Program-made: the position numbers and the translations under genes
Virus record (IMG/VR): IMGVR_UViG_3300034407_000304
Location: 1 to 21,338 of that record
Length of the DNA stretch: 21,338 nt
Source: a virus
Reading direction: 5' to 3' (one strand)
Part shown: in pieces, positions 1,858-8,039 of the stretch
Numbering within the stretch: position 1 is the first letter of the stretch
How the letters are laid out: each line of letters begins with the position of its first letter
The notes under the pieces: model-generated
Told to the model about the DNA's origin: nothing
Seen by the model: the letters and a program-made list of their open reading frames with translations, nothing else
Database searches by the model: none

Positions 1858-2415
1858 TCAATTTCCTACTAATGGGTTGTCTAATGCTTCCTGTAATCTT
1901 TCACTTAATCTATCTTCTAATTGCTTTAAGTTAGAATCAATGCGCTCCTCTGTATCTCTCATTGTATCTCGCACATCTTTTTCTGTTTCTCTATTTAAAG
2001 ATTCTATTTCTCGCAAAGAAGAATTAACATCTTTATTTAATTGATTCATCTCAGCTAGTGTATTCTCTACCATTAAATCTATAGATGCTTGTGTGTCTTT
2101 AATTCTATCAGAAGATTTTTCTACCTTGTTATCTATCTTATCTATGTAACCTTCTAGCTTTAGTATATCATCACGCAGATTATTCTTAATGTCTTTACTA
2201 TACTCCAACGCACTATCTAGTTTTGTTTGGATTAGTGTGTTCTGAGATTTAATAGCACTAATATTTATATTCTGTATGATACCTTTCATATCCATATAGT
2301 CTTTGTAAACTTCAAAGCCGCCCCATAATCCACCGCCAAGTGCCGAAACAATTGGTACAAGTAACATTAACTTGCCACCTTTTATCTTTGCTCCTGCTAT
2401 TTCTACTTCAGCCAT
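1858..2415 (-). CDS. Membrane-anchored coiled-coil protein (possible inner-membrane spanin-like)
   Basis: This 185-residue protein starts with a short basic segment (MAEVEIAGAKIKGGK), then one hydrophobic helix at about residues 16-35 (LMLLVPIVSALGGGLWGGFE), then a long charged region to the end rich in heptad-like leucine, isoleucine and methionine spacing. The three lysines before the helix predict an N-in, C-out topology, placing the coiled coil in the periplasm. This is the architecture of i-spanins, but also of other structural membrane proteins, so lysis is only a hypothesis. A holin-like role is an alternative. The start has AGGAG upstream, overlapping the stop of the lipoprotein gene nine bases away, which suggests the two are made together. 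Confidence 0.75.
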   Translation of the reverse strand: MAEVEIAGAKIKGGKLMLLVPIVSALGGGLWGGFEVYKDYMDMKGIIQNINISAIKSQNTLIQTKLDSALEYSKDIKNNLRDDILKLEGYIDKIDNKVEKSSDRIKDTQASIDLMVENTLAEMNQLNKDVNSSLREIESLNRETEKDVRDTMRDTEERIDSNLKQLEDRLSERLQEALDNPLVGN

Positions 2416-2424
2416 ATCACACTC

Positions 2425-2832
2425 CTAGTTTTCAAATGATAAACTTCTTAGTTGATTAATTTCTTTTTGTAACTTTAATACTTCTAGTTCTTTCTTCTGT
2501 AATTCTAGTTCATACAATCTATTACAATCTATTCTTGATCTAGCCCTAGCACCAAGAGGTATTGTTATCCTACTGTATACACCTATGTCACCAGTTTGTT
2601 TGCTATTATCTTTTCCTTGTATAATACCTGTAACACCAAACTCCCAATTAGTTGCTGATCCTATAGCATTAGAACAATCTAATTCTCCTGCTCTAAATTT
2701 ATCTGCTTGAAAGTTTTGATTTGCGTTAGGTAAAGAAAGATTCAAAGAGTTAGATGCGGAATCAGCTAAAGCTATTATGGCAGTACAACCAGAGATAAAT
2801 AATACTAATACTATTAATAATACTATTCTCAT
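2425..2832 (-). CDS. Phage lipoprotein with C-terminal coiled coil
   Basis: The 135-residue product has a lipoprotein signal: a basic start, a hydrophobic core (VLLIVLVLFI) and the lipobox ISGC with the lipidated cysteine at residue 16. The residue after it is threonine rather than aspartate, which fits sorting to the outer membrane. The mature part has a segment WEFGVTGIIQG followed by GDIGVYSRITIPLG that alternates like a pair of beta strands, flanked by two cysteines (LDCSNA and RIDCNR) that could pair. The last 30 residues (YELELQKKELEVLKLQKEIN) are a coiled coil. The start overlaps the upstream stop by four bases (ATGA). A role in the host envelope is clear; whether it acts in lysis (o-spanin-like), superinfection exclusion or something else is not. 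Confidence 0.78.
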   Translation of the reverse strand: MRIVLLIVLVLFISGCTAIIALADSASNSLNLSLPNANQNFQADKFRAGELDCSNAIGSATNWEFGVTGIIQGKDNSKQTGDIGVYSRITIPLGARARSRIDCNRLYELELQKKELEVLKLQKEINQLRSLSFEN

Positions 2833-3203
2833 TTTTTTATCTTAGAACATATGCGTGAAGCTATTAATGTTACCTGCTCTTTACTTTTAAATACTTTTGA
2901 TTCGGTACAAATGTAAACAGCTTTAGCCATATCTCTTGATCTTATATAAACATCAAAACTTTTTCTTTTATTATACCCTACCTCTATGACATTAGAAGTA
3001 GAAGCAAACGGAACTGGTTTCCATTTGTCAGTAAAGACACCTATCTTATACCATGACACATCACTTCTGCGATTAAATATTTTTAAGTTTGCTACTGATA
3101 CACCCTCCACATAAGACGACTCTAGCTTTGGGTAAGCTGGTGTCATCTCATGCGCGTGTAAAGAACTACACAAACATAAAGCTATTATTACTTGGCGATA
3201 CAT
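2829..3203 (-). CDS. Secreted beta-rich protein, possibly Ig-like
   Basis: This 124-residue protein begins with a clear signal peptide (MYRQVIIALCLCSSLHA, likely cut after residue 17). The mature 107 residues alternate in a beta-sandwich manner: a valine/asparagine strand (VSVANLKIFNRRS), a tyrosine/tryptophan strand (WYKIGVFTDKWKPVPF) and strands VIEVGYNKR, FDVYIRSRD and AVYICTESK. Two cysteines (YICTES and SRICSK) could form a disulfide. The strand order and the PVPF element recall the N-terminal domain of fimbrial chaperones, but I see no diagnostic motif, so this is low-confidence inference. The start overlaps the end of the upstream secreted-protein gene by 16 bases, and its own stop overlaps the lipoprotein start. 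The ribosome binding site is weak, so coupling is likely. Confidence 0.7.
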   Translation of the reverse strand: MYRQVIIALCLCSSLHAHEMTPAYPKLESSYVEGVSVANLKIFNRRSDVSWYKIGVFTDKWKPVPFASTSNVIEVGYNKRKSFDVYIRSRDMAKAVYICTESKVFKSKEQVTLIASRICSKIKK

Positions 3204-3682
3204 TCCGCTACTATTAATGCTGTGTAATTACCAGCAGGTAACGATTTAGTGCTACCATACTGAGCAGTAGAAGCTACAGTAAACCAAGTGCTACCAGCTA
3301 ATGTTAAGTTAAACTCAGTTACATTATTGTAAGTAACCTTAGCCCCTTCGTATGCACTCATATCTGATACGCTTACCTGTCCTACGACTGTACTACCTGT
3401 CCATGCAACTGAGTCATTAAGTGTTGGGCTTGATGAGAAGCTGTTAGGGTGTGTAAACTTAGCCTTATAATAATCTGCTTGCGCTACATCAATTCTAATT
3501 GACGCTGGAACGCCACCATCTGCTGGCACTGTGGACAATTTGTAAGGAAGGGGGTGTCCATAAACACCAGAGGTTTCTGTCCATACAGAACATTTGGGTT
3601 GTACTTGACCTGTAATGGGAGAATCAATTGCCATTGCAGAGCTTGTTGATAATAAAAATATTAATGGTACTATTTTTTTCAT
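3188..3682 (-). CDS. Secreted beta-rich protein, possibly pilin-like
   Basis: A 164-residue product with a textbook signal peptide (MKKIVPLIFLLSTSSAMA, cut after AMA at residue 18). The mature part is rich in serine, threonine, valine and glycine and reads as a beta sandwich. There are two cysteines, one near the mature N-terminus (PKCSVW) and one near the C-terminus (VAECIAK). They could tie the first and last strands together, as in some secreted adhesins and pilin-type domains. There is no lipobox and no membrane segment after the signal. The start has AGGA six bases upstream and lies eight bases after the stop of the previous gene. The function is unknown. Export to the periplasm or outside is the only firm statement. 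A host-envelope or virion-surface role is inferred from its place behind the tail fibre. Confidence 0.72.
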   Translation of the reverse strand: MKKIVPLIFLLSTSSAMAIDSPITGQVQPKCSVWTETSGVYGHPLPYKLSTVPADGGVPASIRIDVAQADYYKAKFTHPNSFSSSPTLNDSVAWTGSTVVGQVSVSDMSAYEGAKVTYNNVTEFNLTLAGSTWFTVASTAQYGSTKSLPAGNYTALIVAECIAK

Positions 3683-3690
3683 GTCATTTC

Positions 3691-4587
3691 CTAATCTTTA
3701 TATTGTAATCTAACTATTCTTCTGTGAGACTTATCTTGTTTTAGATTTATTAACGCTGTGGCATTATCTTCTATGGTACTATCTACTAATTTAACTGTTT
3801 CTTCATACTTACCACCTTCTATAGTTGCACTATAATAACCATCTAATGTGCCAGCCGCAGCCATTTGCTGCATCATTGCTAGTTGTTGTGTTGGATTCGC
3901 TATTTGTTCTGCCGCTCCTGCAACAGCCAACGCTCTTTCCATTTTTAATTCTTCCTGTTCCTCTTCTTCTTTCTTTTCTTTTGCAGCTTGTTCTTCTTCT
4001 TGTTCTTCTGTCTTACGATCTAGTTGATACTGAACCCATTCATCATAGTAAGGATCATCTATCGCTGGTTCATTATTAAGCAGATCATTGTCTAAAAGAT
4101 ATTGATACAAAGCATCTTTAAAATTAGGGCAGCTAGGATCAGAAAGTGGAATGTAACAAGGATCAAACTTATAATTGTACGCTACTATTACATCGCTAAG
4201 TGTTGCGCCATTACTAGCTGTGATACTTCCTTCTCCCCACTTAGTGCCAAGAGAAGGATTAACAACATCAAATCCTATCTTAGTATTGCTTGGTAACTGA
4301 TCCCAGTTATCGTGTCTTTCATATATATTACCAGTTCCGGTGCTGTTCTTATTTACAATAGAAACTGTAGAATCTGCACTGCTACTTTTATTTATTGTAT
4401 ACTTATGAAATATGCCTTGAATTTCTAACCCTGCCTCTGGTGGCAACACATCTGTCATATTCCAGGTGTGTTTATTCTTAGCTACATTGTTTGTTCTTCC
4501 GTATGTGTAATCAGAATATAAACAAGAGGGCCAAGAAAAGACCAATAACAGCACCAGCACCTGTTGCGGTGTTCTTGGTATCATCAT
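3691..4587 (-). CDS. Secreted protein with acidic coiled-coil segment
   Basis: The 298-residue protein starts with a signal peptide or membrane anchor (hydrophobic core VLVLLLVFSWPSCLYS, residues 10-25). Residues about 26-140 form a beta-rich region (TYGRTNNV, GLEIQGIFHKYTI, VIVAYNYKFDPC). A strongly charged, glutamate-rich coiled-coil follows at about 190-225 (KTEEQEEEQAAKEKKEEEEQ), then an alanine/glutamine/methionine-rich helix and a C-terminal helix. A pair of cysteines frames SDPSC near residues 142-152. The start is well supported: AAAGGAGG lies six bases upstream of the ATG at 4587 (a second ATG follows at 4584). This places its first 77 bases inside the upstream gene in another frame. 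It looks like an exported structural or envelope protein. I do not recognise a named family. Confidence 0.75.
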   Translation of the reverse strand: MMIPRTPQQVLVLLLVFSWPSCLYSDYTYGRTNNVAKNKHTWNMTDVLPPEAGLEIQGIFHKYTINKSSSADSTVSIVNKNSTGTGNIYERHDNWDQLPSNTKIGFDVVNPSLGTKWGEGSITASNGATLSDVIVAYNYKFDPCYIPLSDPSCPNFKDALYQYLLDNDLLNNEPAIDDPYYDEWVQYQLDRKTEEQEEEQAAKEKKEEEEQEELKMERALAVAGAAEQIANPTQQLAMMQQMAAAGTLDGYYSATIEGGKYEETVKLVDSTIEDNATALINLKQDKSHRRIVRLQYKD

Positions 4588-5113
4588 CCCATTCCTCCTT
4601 TGCTCCTGTCTTAGCGTCAGGAACTAAGTGTGGGTTATTTTTCCATGCGTCTTTAGCTGGCTGACCTACAAGACCATCAAATGGACATGGTGTTCCAGCA
4701 TTCATCATGCTTTCAAACACACGCTTGTCCATACAAAGCACGCTGACTGCTGCAACTTTCATTCCCATATCATAGAGAACTTTAGCATTCTTTAATCTTT
4801 CGCAATTCATATCTCTTGTTGCAGTACCTACTGAGATACCTAGTATCTGTGTTTGAACTGCACCTGACATACCTACTGTGCATAAGTCTGAGTTAGAATT
4901 ATTTATTGTAGGTGACATTGCTGAGGGTGGAGGTGACTTAACTGTAGTTTCTGAACTTAAAGTAGAGTTAACAGAAGATGTTGTATTACTATTAGTCTCT
5001 ATACAGTTAGCATTAGTAGCACTGTCACAACCTTCAGCATATACTTGTTTAGCCATCATTAACATAAAAACTACAAGTATTGCTATTACTGTGTATATAA
5101 AAAATGATTTCAT
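4511..5113 (-). CDS. Envelope protein with two membrane segments
   Basis: This 200-residue protein has an N-terminal hydrophobic helix (FIYTVIAILVVFMLMMAKQV), possibly cleaved after VYA at residue 26. A low-complexity serine/threonine/asparagine linker follows (about 30-75). Next comes a compact domain with cysteines at SDLCTVG, RDMNCERL, VLCMDK and TPCPFDG, and finally a hydrophobic C-terminal tail (ATGAGAVIGLFLALLFIF). The short segment CMDKRVFESMMNAGTPCPFD looks like a conserved core. The protein probably spans or sits on the inner membrane with a periplasmic domain. No strong ribosome binding site is visible before the ATG, which lies 12 bases after the previous stop. Its last 25 codons also encode the signal peptide of the next gene in the +1 frame. 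I do not recognise its function. Confidence 0.72.
   Translation of the reverse strand: MKSFFIYTVIAILVVFMLMMAKQVYAEGCDSATNANCIETNSNTTSSVNSTLSSETTVKSPPPSAMSPTINNSNSDLCTVGMSGAVQTQILGISVGTATRDMNCERLKNAKVLYDMGMKVAAVSVLCMDKRVFESMMNAGTPCPFDGLVGQPAKDAWKNNPHLVPDAKTGAKEEWDDDTKNTATGAGAVIGLFLALLFIF
4594..4601 (-). promoter_or_regulatory. Strong Shine-Dalgarno inside the upstream gene
   Basis: The minus strand reads AAAGGAGG followed by AATGGG and then ATGATG. This near-perfect ribosome binding site lies within the coding part of the preceding gene and decides the start at 4587. It shows that the 77-base overlap is real translation of a second frame rather than a wrongly called start. Confidence 0.75.
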
Positions 5114-5435: not shown

Positions 5436-8039
5436 TTATCCTTCTAATGCTGTTATTCTTGCCTCAATAGAAGCAAATCGTTGTTCGTTATATGCGGCTA
5501 CAAAAGATAATAACTCAGGGTATCTAATGCCCATCCTAGTTTTAGAGACTGCACCTTCTGTACCTTCTTCCACTTCATTACCTTCAGAATCTACAAGCCA
5601 TGTACTTGAGATAAACAATGAGTAATCACCAGCATCTAAACCTTCTGCTGTAAAAGCCGCCTGTACATCTTGAGCTATAATACCTGTATGAGTACGAGCA
5701 TTATCACCCTTCTCAGCTACACTGTCTTTCCAACGGAATGTCTTAAACAGTGCTGAGATACGTTTACCTACTAGCATTTCTGTAGCTGTAAGTGATGCTA
5801 TGTCTTGCTTTTCGGTTTGGTCAGAAGTTTGGATTGTGCCGTTGGTGGCGTAGATGTTGTCGTATCTTGCCGAAGCTGTACCAAAAGAAATAGAATCATC
5901 TCGTGTTGCTCCTGTATCACCTCGTGCAGGGATAATAGCGTTAGAGCTATCAAGAAAGCGTAAACCTGTATCAGTTGTACCAATATACATATCAGTACCT
6001 ATTGTACCAATATTCCCCACCGTGGAGCCGTCTTTGCGGAAGTCTACTAGATCGCCATCAGAACCCTGACGATTAACATATAGCGGAGTTCCTGTTCCTG
6101 CTATTTGAATCTGCCCTGTATTTAAGGCTATGCCTGTACCAGACGAATCGTTGTATACGCTGTTACTAGTAGTTCCGACCAACACGCTACCACCATTCGG
6201 ACTTAAAATGATATCACGATAAGCTGCTCCGTAATCTGCCGCTTGAAGCCAAGCATAGCTATCATCAACAATACCAAATAATAGTCTTGTGTCTGTAATA
6301 GCTCCAGTTCCAGTAGTTAATGCTAAAATGCCATTGGTAAGGCCACCAACATTGGCCCCACTTACGCCTGTAACTGTTAGTTTTTGAGCTGGTGCAACTG
6401 ATGTACCAATTCCCACCCGACCGCTACTGTCGATGCGCATTTTTTCACTAGAACCATCAACTCTAAATCTAATAGAACTATCTGCTGTTGCATCATCTCT
6501 ATCAGCAACAATAAATAAATTTCCACCATCTGCAAAGATAGCACCATCAATATTATTTGAGGTATCAGCAAACTCTATTATCCCTGCACCTGTTCCTGAA
6601 CCTCCTGATATTTTTAATTTTTTATGGTCAGCCTCATTAGCAATCGTACCAGTTCCAATTCCCACGTTGCCTGAGCTGTCGATAAATAAATCATTTTCAC
6701 GGGCAGCACCACCTATACCAAGACCTGTACCTTGAACTTGTATTCCACCTGCTTGAGTTCCTCCAAAATAGAACTCCATAGCTGTTCCACTACTTCCTGA
6801 CCTTGTAAATTTTGATTTACCTCCATTTCCACTTACTTCTAATAATTGTGCTGGAGATGTAGCCCCAATCCCAACATTTCCAGCAACTGTTAGGGTCGTA
6901 GCCATATCAACAGCACCGTCAATATCTACCACATCAAGGTTAGCTATACCGTCTACGTCTATGTTGCCTGAGATATCTAAACTTGCCGCCGCTATTTCAC
7001 CAGATGCAGTAAGAGAAGTTATGTTAGGGTTAGCACCACTACCAGCTAGTGATGCCATGTCAGCAATAACAGAGCTCGTAGCAAGTAAACTTAAATCCTC
7101 TACAATTGCACTTGTTGCTAGTAAATTTAAGTCAGTAACAATGTCGCTTGTTGCTAGTGTATTTAAATCAGATACAATGTCAGATGTTGCTAAAGTATTT
7201 ATATCACTAACAATATCGCTGGTTGCAAGTGTGTTTAAGTCAGATACTATGTCGCTTGTAGCGAGTGTATTCATATCAGCAATAACATCTGATGTAGCAA
7301 GCAATGCCATGTCAGCTATTACATCTGCATTTCCAAGCAATGCCATGTCAGCAATAACAGCACTAGCAGCGAGAGCATTTATATTTGTTATTGCACCTGC
7401 AACACTTGTTACATTGCTAGCTATTCCTGCAACTGTTGTTACATTACTAGCTATACCAGCAACGATTGTAACATTTTCTGCTATACTTGCTGTTATATTA
7501 ATATTATTTGTAATTGCAGAGAGAGAGTTAACATTAGCTATAGTAGGGCCAACTTCTGCTGCACCAGTGCTAGCATTAAAGCCTAAAACAGTTCCTTTTC
7601 TTGCTGCAACAAGAGGTAATTCCATACTTACTGCTGAATCGGAATCTGCTAAGTGTAACGCTCGATCAATCGTATCGTCATTGTCAGCTTGAATAGCAAC
7701 AAATCTATCTAGCTCAGTGTTAAGAGTGTCTATAGAAAATGAGCCTGATACTGGAAAGTCTGTTGTTCTTGATAAAGCAATGCTTCTTGTAATAACAACG
7801 GTGCTTCCACCACTTGCACCAGTTACACTATTACCAGATGTAGTATTTATAGTGCCAGTAGAGCCATTACCACCTGATATTGTGTAGTGTGTTGTTAGTG
7901 TTTTCTTAGTACCATCTACATAGAAGTTAAGATCAGCTTCGGCAAAAAACTCAAATGGCACAGTAAATGCTGTTTGAGTTGCACCCTCATTTACCGTATA
8001 TGATATACGCGGTGTATTGTCTGATAAACTAATAGTCAT
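5436..8039 (-). CDS. Tail fibre with T7-type N-terminus and S74 chaperone domain
   Basis: The 867-residue fibre binds the host surface. Residues about 1-135 match the T7 gp17 N-terminal attachment domain (RISYTVNEGATQTAFTVPFE, then the stretch around FPVSGSFSIDTLNTELDRFV). Residues 189-218 hold ten-residue NVTxVAGIAS repeats, 222-329 hold nine twelve-residue repeats, and 387-620 hold beta-helix-like modules with a recurring VGIG motif. The C-terminal 129 residues are an intramolecular chaperone of peptidase family S74. S739 with K744 (TSDQTEKQDI) and HTGIIAQDV are the expected catalytic and conserved positions. S74 domains help trimerise the fibre and then cut themselves off before the serine. 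GAGG lies six bases before the ATG. It is the only clear receptor-binding gene in the window. Confidence 0.92.
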   Translation of the reverse strand: MTISLSDNTPRISYTVNEGATQTAFTVPFEFFAEADLNFYVDGTKKTLTTHYTISGGNGSTGTINTTSGNSVTGASGGSTVVITRSIALSRTTDFPVSGSFSIDTLNTELDRFVAIQADNDDTIDRALHLADSDSAVSMELPLVAARKGTVLGFNASTGAAEVGPTIANVNSLSAITNNINITASIAENVTIVAGIASNVTTVAGIASNVTSVAGAITNINALAASAVIADMALLGNADVIADMALLATSDVIADMNTLATSDIVSDLNTLATSDIVSDINTLATSDIVSDLNTLATSDIVTDLNLLATSAIVEDLSLLATSSVIADMASLAGSGANPNITSLTASGEIAAASLDISGNIDVDGIANLDVVDIDGAVDMATTLTVAGNVGIGATSPAQLLEVSGNGGKSKFTRSGSSGTAMEFYFGGTQAGGIQVQGTGLGIGGAARENDLFIDSSGNVGIGTGTIANEADHKKLKISGGSGTGAGIIEFADTSNNIDGAIFADGGNLFIVADRDDATADSSIRFRVDGSSEKMRIDSSGRVGIGTSVAPAQKLTVTGVSGANVGGLTNGILALTTGTGAITDTRLLFGIVDDSYAWLQAADYGAAYRDIILSPNGGSVLVGTTSNSVYNDSSGTGIALNTGQIQIAGTGTPLYVNRQGSDGDLVDFRKDGSTVGNIGTIGTDMYIGTTDTGLRFLDSSNAIIPARGDTGATRDDSISFGTASARYDNIYATNGTIQTSDQTEKQDIASLTATEMLVGKRISALFKTFRWKDSVAEKGDNARTHTGIIAQDVQAAFTAEGLDAGDYSLFISSTWLVDSEGNEVEEGTEGAVSKTRMGIRYPELLSFVAAYNEQRFASIEARITALEG
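6168..6881 (-). repeat. VGIG-type beta repeats in the fibre shaft
   Basis: Within the fibre, the modules GNVGIGATSP, GNVGIGTGTI, GRVGIGTSVA and GSVLVGTTSN recur at spacings of about 70-95 residues. Each opens a segment of beta-rich sequence, as in many phage fibres with S74 tails. The copies are diverged at DNA level, so they are old modules rather than recent duplications. Confidence 0.65.
7053..7376 (-). repeat. Nine 12-residue (36-nt) repeats in the fibre
   Basis: Nine consecutive copies of a twelve-residue unit with consensus TLATSDIVSDLN span fibre residues 222-329. Outer copies read LLGNADVIADMA or LLATSSVIADMA and the four central copies are nearly identical. The DNA follows a 36-base period with mostly synonymous differences, so purifying selection on the peptide is likely. 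Leucine and isoleucine/valine spacing suggests a coiled-coil or stacked-strand shaft whose length could change by unequal recombination. Confidence 0.85.
7386..7475 (-). repeat. Three 10-residue (30-nt) repeats in the fibre
   Basis: Three units NVTIVAGIAS, NVTTVAGIAS and NVTSVAGAIT lie directly ahead of the 12-residue array in protein order, at fibre residues 189-218. The unit length changes from 10 to 12 residues at the junction, which marks a change in shaft geometry. Confidence 0.75.

Follow-up and report, generated by a model that had tools for sequence, protein, structure and literature searches.

Membrane-tail and signal-peptide readings of one stretch of DNA at a gene junction of marine phages

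The gene pair and its cassette

The window, a virus record of 21,338 bases from IMG/VR, carries on its minus strand two genes, A (4511..5113, 200 aa) and B (3691..4587, 298 aa), which share the 77 nt from 4511 to 4587, B being read in the +1 frame of A. A consists of an N-terminal signal peptide or transmembrane segment, a Ser/Thr/Asn linker, a four-cysteine core and a hydrophobic C-terminal tail (residues 186-200, AGAVIGLFLALLFIF, 4514..4558), the last of these being apparent in the sequence, in an AF2 model and in relatives. B is predicted to be exported and comprises a beta-sandwich domain, a charged helix and a conserved C-terminal motif with QY. Its predicted signal peptide (residues 1-25, 4513..4587), with a cleavage site taken from alignment with relatives, lies entirely within A, as does the strong Shine-Dalgarno (SD) sequence AAAGGAGG (4594..4601) found 6 nt before its ATG, the order in the window being AAAGGAGG, AATGGG, ATG. 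A first-pass annotation of this DNA had described 77 shared bases read in frames shifted by one, an SD six bases ahead of the second start, and an end of A (AGAVIGLFLALLFIF) and a start of B (LVLLLVFSWPSCLY) that overlie each other, and all of this agrees with the sequence: the two open reading frames share exactly 4511-4587, with B one base later. The position of the first ATG (4587) is an ATG in 19 of 20 close relatives and that of the second in 10 of 20, and the first is the likelier start of B. At the other end of the overlap, the stop codon of A (TGA, 4513-4511) supplies GA, the first two bases of B's D26 codon. The T content is 36% across the overlap and 47% over the last 17 sense codons of A.

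The conserved core of A (residues 60-160, 4634..4936, minus strand) contains C78, C104, C127 and C143 in columns that are invariant or nearly invariant in 97 sequences. A matches phrog_20531, a family of unknown function (E 7e-14), as do all 97 members of the A alignment; the profile spans 314 positions, more than A, and no function is described for it. The AF2 model of A (mean pLDDT 75) has helices at residues 2-20 and 177-199, the latter confident, and found no structural match in the PDB. That of B (mean pLDDT 84) shows a confident beta sandwich plus a long helix. The sandwich, which is jelly-roll-like and spans residues 23-142 (4162..4521, minus strand; pLDDT mostly above 90), has a best VIA Z of 8.2 to assorted jelly rolls, an ambiguous value at the level of a common arrangement. 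No function for A or B emerged from Pfam, PHROGs, NCBIfam, Foldseek or the sequences of the PDB, where the matches did not go beyond phrog_20531 and members of the same viral family, and tblastn gave no match to B in phage records. The term 'envelope protein' used for A by the first-pass annotation is apt for the envelope of the host cell only and not for that of a virion, since this is a tailed phage, with matches to a major capsid protein and to a tail fibre with an endosialidase-type chaperone. In C-terminal sorting signals of the GlyGly-CTERM type, the hydrophobic stretch is followed by a basic cluster. The tail of A gives no support for such a signal, since among 165 hydrophobic tails just one has K or R in its last four residues, and no NCBIfam CTERM model was among the best 25 of 34 families for the 97 A members. 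With no trailing basic residues, the membrane topology of the tail is uncertain.

A and B are the first genes of a cassette, A-B-C-D-E-F (1858-5113 in the window, minus strand), whose order is fixed in 89/89 junctions with room for it, on contigs of 35 to 147 kb. C (164 aa, 3188..3682), D (124 aa, 2829..3203) and E (135 aa, 2425..2832) are predicted to be exported, and F (185 aa, 1858..2415) has an N-terminal transmembrane segment and a coiled coil; they lie downstream in 101/101, 97/97, 94/94 and 89/89 junctions with room, respectively, and F is also found at 56 of 57 such loci of the A_115 type defined below. Five of the window's six cassette genes begin with a signal-peptide-like segment and F with a transmembrane one. 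C and D have no Pfam or PDB relative of note, and E has no PDB relative. The family belongs to marine phages; 28 loci sit in genome contigs whose titles name metagenome bins, uncultured isolates or the like; a cellular origin was rejected for these, which are probably phage contigs. Near the cassette are genes that, by their motifs, we take to be cell-wall hydrolase-like. From this gene content and these neighbours, one may guess at an envelope-directed role, e.g. surface modification or a part in lysis, the nearby hydrolase-like genes making lysis or envelope change likelier. E was considered as a lipoprotein and rejected, its lipobox-like SGC being present in the window member only and absent from the other aligned rows (28 rows). 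E with its SGC and F with its transmembrane segment and coiled coil adjoin each other, and could be a spanin pair or be mistaken for one.

The overlap within and beyond the window's lineage

Scanning IMG/VR with A and with B gave at least 150 loci which, together with the window, provided at least 143 pairs with A's stop in the locus (six loci were without A, one without B and one without A's end), collapsing to at least 113 unique 300-nt A/B junctions. When the start of B was chosen solely among those overlapping A, B was in the +1 frame of A in 113/113 unique junctions among the matches listed, and the overlap measured 62-86 nt in 108 of them, 44 nt in four and 125 nt in one; in one of the 44-nt cases (L001), an upstream ATG that would give 77 nt is present, with a weak SD. 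Free start calling placed gene 2 downstream in at least five window-type loci (L039, L066, L067, L073 and L080), which counts against the explanation favoured below. Some SD-like motif precedes B in 110/113 junctions (AAGGAGG or AAGGAG in 41), and the stop of A is TGA in 102/113, those of B and C being mostly TAA. Overlaps of at least 40 nt were found in 96/96 loci for A/B, in none for B/C and D/E, and in two for C/D. The comparison of hundreds of relatives indicates that the A/B overlap is conserved and that both readings are kept.

A wider set was assembled from scans with A of HTVC023P, HTVC115P and CRP-207 and from 11 phage records. It holds 396 loci with A, of which 372 include A's stop and 450 nt beyond, collapsing to 297 unique junctions that were typed by their nearest query. 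With an overlap counted from 44 nt upwards and a tail called hydrophobic at a 12-residue KD mean of 1.5 or more, 111 of 112 window-type junctions have both features and one has neither. The A_115 type is similar (61 junctions: 53 with both, seven with neither, one with a tail and no called overlap). The A_207 type has the overlap with a hydrophilic tail in 64 of 65 junctions and neither feature in one, and the A_023 type has the overlap with a hydrophilic tail in 20 of 59 and neither in 39. Over all lineages, 84/297 junctions combine the overlap with a hydrophilic tail and 48/297 lack both features. Across the four lineages of A, the 250 overlaps that reach 20 nt are all in one phase, and a hydrophobic tail coincides with an overlap in 164 of 165 tailed junctions, the exception (L304) having no called gene 2. 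The signal-peptide overlap is thus more widespread than the hydrophobic tail. In the CRP-207 lineage the signal peptide of gene 2 lies inside A and yet A's tail is hydrophilic, while HTVC202P, HTVC033P and Mosig, for example, have relatives of A without a hydrophobic tail and a gene 2 that begins no earlier than the stop of A. The first-pass annotation had named as damaging to its case any relatives in which the second gene starts downstream without a signal peptide or the first lacks the tail, and had proposed checking whether hydrophobicity is kept in both frames. Such relatives exist outside the window's lineage, and they restrict the claim to that lineage, in which 111/112 junctions have both tail and overlap, rather than overturning it. 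Since distant relatives have the overlap with a hydrophilic tail, or neither feature, dual hydrophobicity is a trait of a lineage and is not forced. This makes the family a natural experiment in dual coding, in which lineages without one or both features are built-in controls.

In a tree built from 44 representatives over 102 columns, in which few branches are strong, the overlap needs five changes and the tail four. In the best tree, the tailed window-type and A_115 rows form one side of a branch with support 59, which lends no support to two separate origins of the tail; the tail may have had a single origin. Gene 2 of the window type and that of A_115 match over 42 C-terminal columns only (a single hhalign comparison, of alignments A2 and A6), i.e. 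a short common C-terminal motif stands behind apparently unrelated front domains, and no convincing match was obtained to gene 2 of A_207 or A_023.

Selection on the two frames and how they fit

The first-pass annotation had proposed looking for reduced synonymous change in the overlap, and it is seen in both frames. At four-fold sites (276 pairs, 83 sequences), divergence in the A frame is 0.236 in the overlap vs 0.439 in A's body, and in the B frame 0.139 vs 0.485 in B's body. With each sequence used in one pair only, the overlap diverges less than A's body at third positions in 29 of 36 pairs and more in six, the remaining pair being equal to two decimals (sign test on 29/35, p 1e-4). Two-frame rates, which are simple counts with no phylogenetic correction, gave for the window type (42 pairs) 0.57 (0.41-0.74) for A (dNN/dSN) and 0.82 (0.65-0.99) for B (dNN/dNS), for A_115 (19 pairs) 0.27 (0.16-0.40) and 0.78 (0.51-1.10), and for A_207 (26 pairs) 0.65 (0.37-0.97) and 0.56 (0.34-0.86). 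These values indicate purifying selection on both frames, more strongly on the tail of A. Support for B is marginal: the constraint on its frame is weak, the window-type interval almost reaching 1 and that of A_115 including it.

When the residues of one protein were held fixed and codons were redrawn from the phages' own usage, fixing A's tail left the B frame open in 24% of draws and both open and hydrophobic in 7.5%, as against 57/57 and 55/57 observed. Fixing B's residues gave an open and hydrophobic A frame in 34% of draws, or 61% of the open ones (57/57 observed), so that part of the tail's hydrophobicity comes free. In control segments taken from the N-termini of other cassette proteins and of A itself, the +1 frame is open and hydrophobic in 15 of 381 cases (A 3/171, C 1/57, D 3/65, E 2/45, F 6/43), compared with 46 of 48 for the overlap. 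The dual reading of A/B is more than chance and, with the conserved overlap and the signs of purifying selection, these controls uphold the proposal of the first-pass annotation that this is overprinting with both frames kept.

Its further idea, that one thymine-rich run gives the two proteins their hydrophobic residues from identical bases, is not supported as it stands. In 58 junctions under 80% identical, the last eight codons of A encode mostly Leu (337), where B has Ser (176), Tyr (100) and Cys (60), a polar stretch; over the preceding nine codons A has mostly Gly, Ala, Leu and Val, and B has Leu (195), Ala (90) and Val (87). The hydrophobic cores of the two proteins are offset by about half and coincide in part only, Gly, Ala and Val codons of A with a final T being read as the Leu/Val core of B. 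Codon choice follows suit in the terminal Leu run, where CTC accounts for 142 of the 337 Leu codons at the final eight positions of A, as against 60 of 579 in the body of A (Fisher p 4e-28). Of the last seven signal-peptide codons of gene 2, the share that begin with T is 79% for the window type, 56% for A_115, 15% for A_207 and 9% for A_023; for the signal peptides of A itself it is 27%. Where A has no hydrophobic tail, cleavage is most often predicted at conventional AxA sites (ANA, VSA, SNA, AFA). The contrast between tailed and untailed lineages argues that A's tail reshaped the signal peptide of B. The family thus allows one frame's reshaping of the other to be measured, down to unusual Ser/Tyr/Cys cleavage regions.

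Cleavage sites across the lineage were placed with a home-made score, by which A's stop falls exactly at B's site in 74 of 111 window-type junctions and within three codons of it in 89. For window-like sequences, the score prefers S18|W19 over S25|D26, seven codons earlier (VFS|W in 11 rows); in A_207, A's stop lies mostly 0 to 16 codons beyond the site. For most of the lineage, then, the signal peptide uses up the overlap, and for the window itself we infer this. With the overlap stopping at about the end of the signal peptide, the mature domain of B would lie clear of it.

A shared gene end and its alternatives

What these data very probably reflect is a 3' end of A that doubles as the signal-peptide region of B, with both readings kept by selection and fitted to each other with an offset. 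From sequence and conservation, B would be initiated independently by ribosomes at the SD inside A. A would be exported through its own N-terminal signal and, in the window's lineage, its last 15-20 residues would act as a membrane anchor, while B would be exported via a signal peptide read one base later in the same DNA and cut off near A's end. Codon and substitution tests point to maintenance of both readings by selection. Small residues of A with T-ending codons (GGT, GCT, GTT, ATT) would supply the Val/Leu core of B, and A's terminal Leu codons, shifted towards CTC, would supply B's Ser/Tyr/Cys cleavage region.

Plain genome compression with translational coupling, the two readings having no special relation, seems rather unlikely. 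Overlapping genes are common in phages, B's start does lie within A, and composition favours phase 1 in long same-strand overlaps (PMC2542354), but the other junctions of the cassette have no deep overlap and the length of this one is held near the size of a signal peptide (62-86 nt in 108/113), while a start 77 nt before A's stop would be far for termination-reinitiation. Slightly less plausible still is a hydrophobic tail that arose as a by-product, A having lost its stop and run into the signal-peptide region of B, so that B's reading alone matters. The near confinement of the tail to overlaps (164/165) and its appearance in 34% of B-fixed draws (61% of open draws) would fit such an origin, which seems difficult to reconcile with the stronger constraint on the A frame (0.57, and 0.27 in A_115), with a T-first codon shift seen in the signal peptides of tailed lineages and absent from untailed ones, and with the hydrophilic tails that the same phase yields elsewhere (hydrophobic in 0/15 in A_207 and 0/5 in A_023).

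The layout also recalls two-component spanins of the overlapped type, in which the export signal of B would lie inside the gene of its inner-membrane partner. In Rz/Rz1-type spanins, the envelope gene upstream contains the signal sequence of the exported protein, frequently in its +1 frame, and starts are often mis-annotated (PMC6139136). Overlapped or embedded Rz/Rz1 pairs, as in lambda and P2, are the closest precedent for a signal sequence inside an upstream envelope gene. That A and B are themselves such a pair is nevertheless highly improbable. Of the N-terminal transmembrane segment and periplasmic coiled coil of an inner-membrane spanin partner, the model of A shows a hydrophobic N-terminal helix but no long coiled coil. 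The presumed hydrolase-like genes are near, yet A has no spanin family match, and has a cysteine core and a signal-peptide-like start of its own; many of its relatives are without the C-terminal hydrophobic tail, and B is no lipoprotein, a lipobox-like motif being present in just 10 of 111 B proteins.

A 3' end of A that doubles as the signal-peptide region of B has other parallels. Signal peptides also lie over the 3' end of an upstream gene in HIV-1 vpu/env and in the glycoprotein overlaps of arteriviruses, which are animal viruses with proteins unrelated to A and B. In phiX174 D/E, T at third positions of the other frame gives rise to a hydrophobic membrane segment (PMC8227390); there the segment belongs to an internal gene, whereas one frame here gives a membrane tail and the other a signal peptide, their cores being offset. 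A literature search of titles and abstract openings found no paper describing the A/B overlap. This kind of gene overlap is known; what is new is the conserved dual coding of membrane tail and signal peptide, set beside lineages in which one or both are missing.

A more tentative extension, which we regard as possible though doubtful, is that A's 3' end serves as a built-in export signal for any gene that follows, with swappable partner domains, the tailed lineages having been tuned further for a dual membrane tail/signal peptide. Between lineages the mature parts of gene 2 differ and the phase of its signal peptide inside A is fixed; on this reading A's stop would mark the cleavage site, and new domains could thus be swapped in.

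There is also a practical side, in that gene 2 starts are annotated too far downstream in two phages, which hides their signal peptides. For gp53 of HTVC115P (L157:6413-7876), the annotated GTG start at 6476 loses the signal peptide and an ATG lies upstream at 6413; for gp74 of CRP-207 (L158:2468-3295), the same is true of the GTG at 2510 and the ATG at 2468. From either ATG, a textbook predicted signal peptide is read inside the preceding gene. In MW202481 (L160:5983-6512), the relative of A is unannotated and the start called for the following gene falls far within it.
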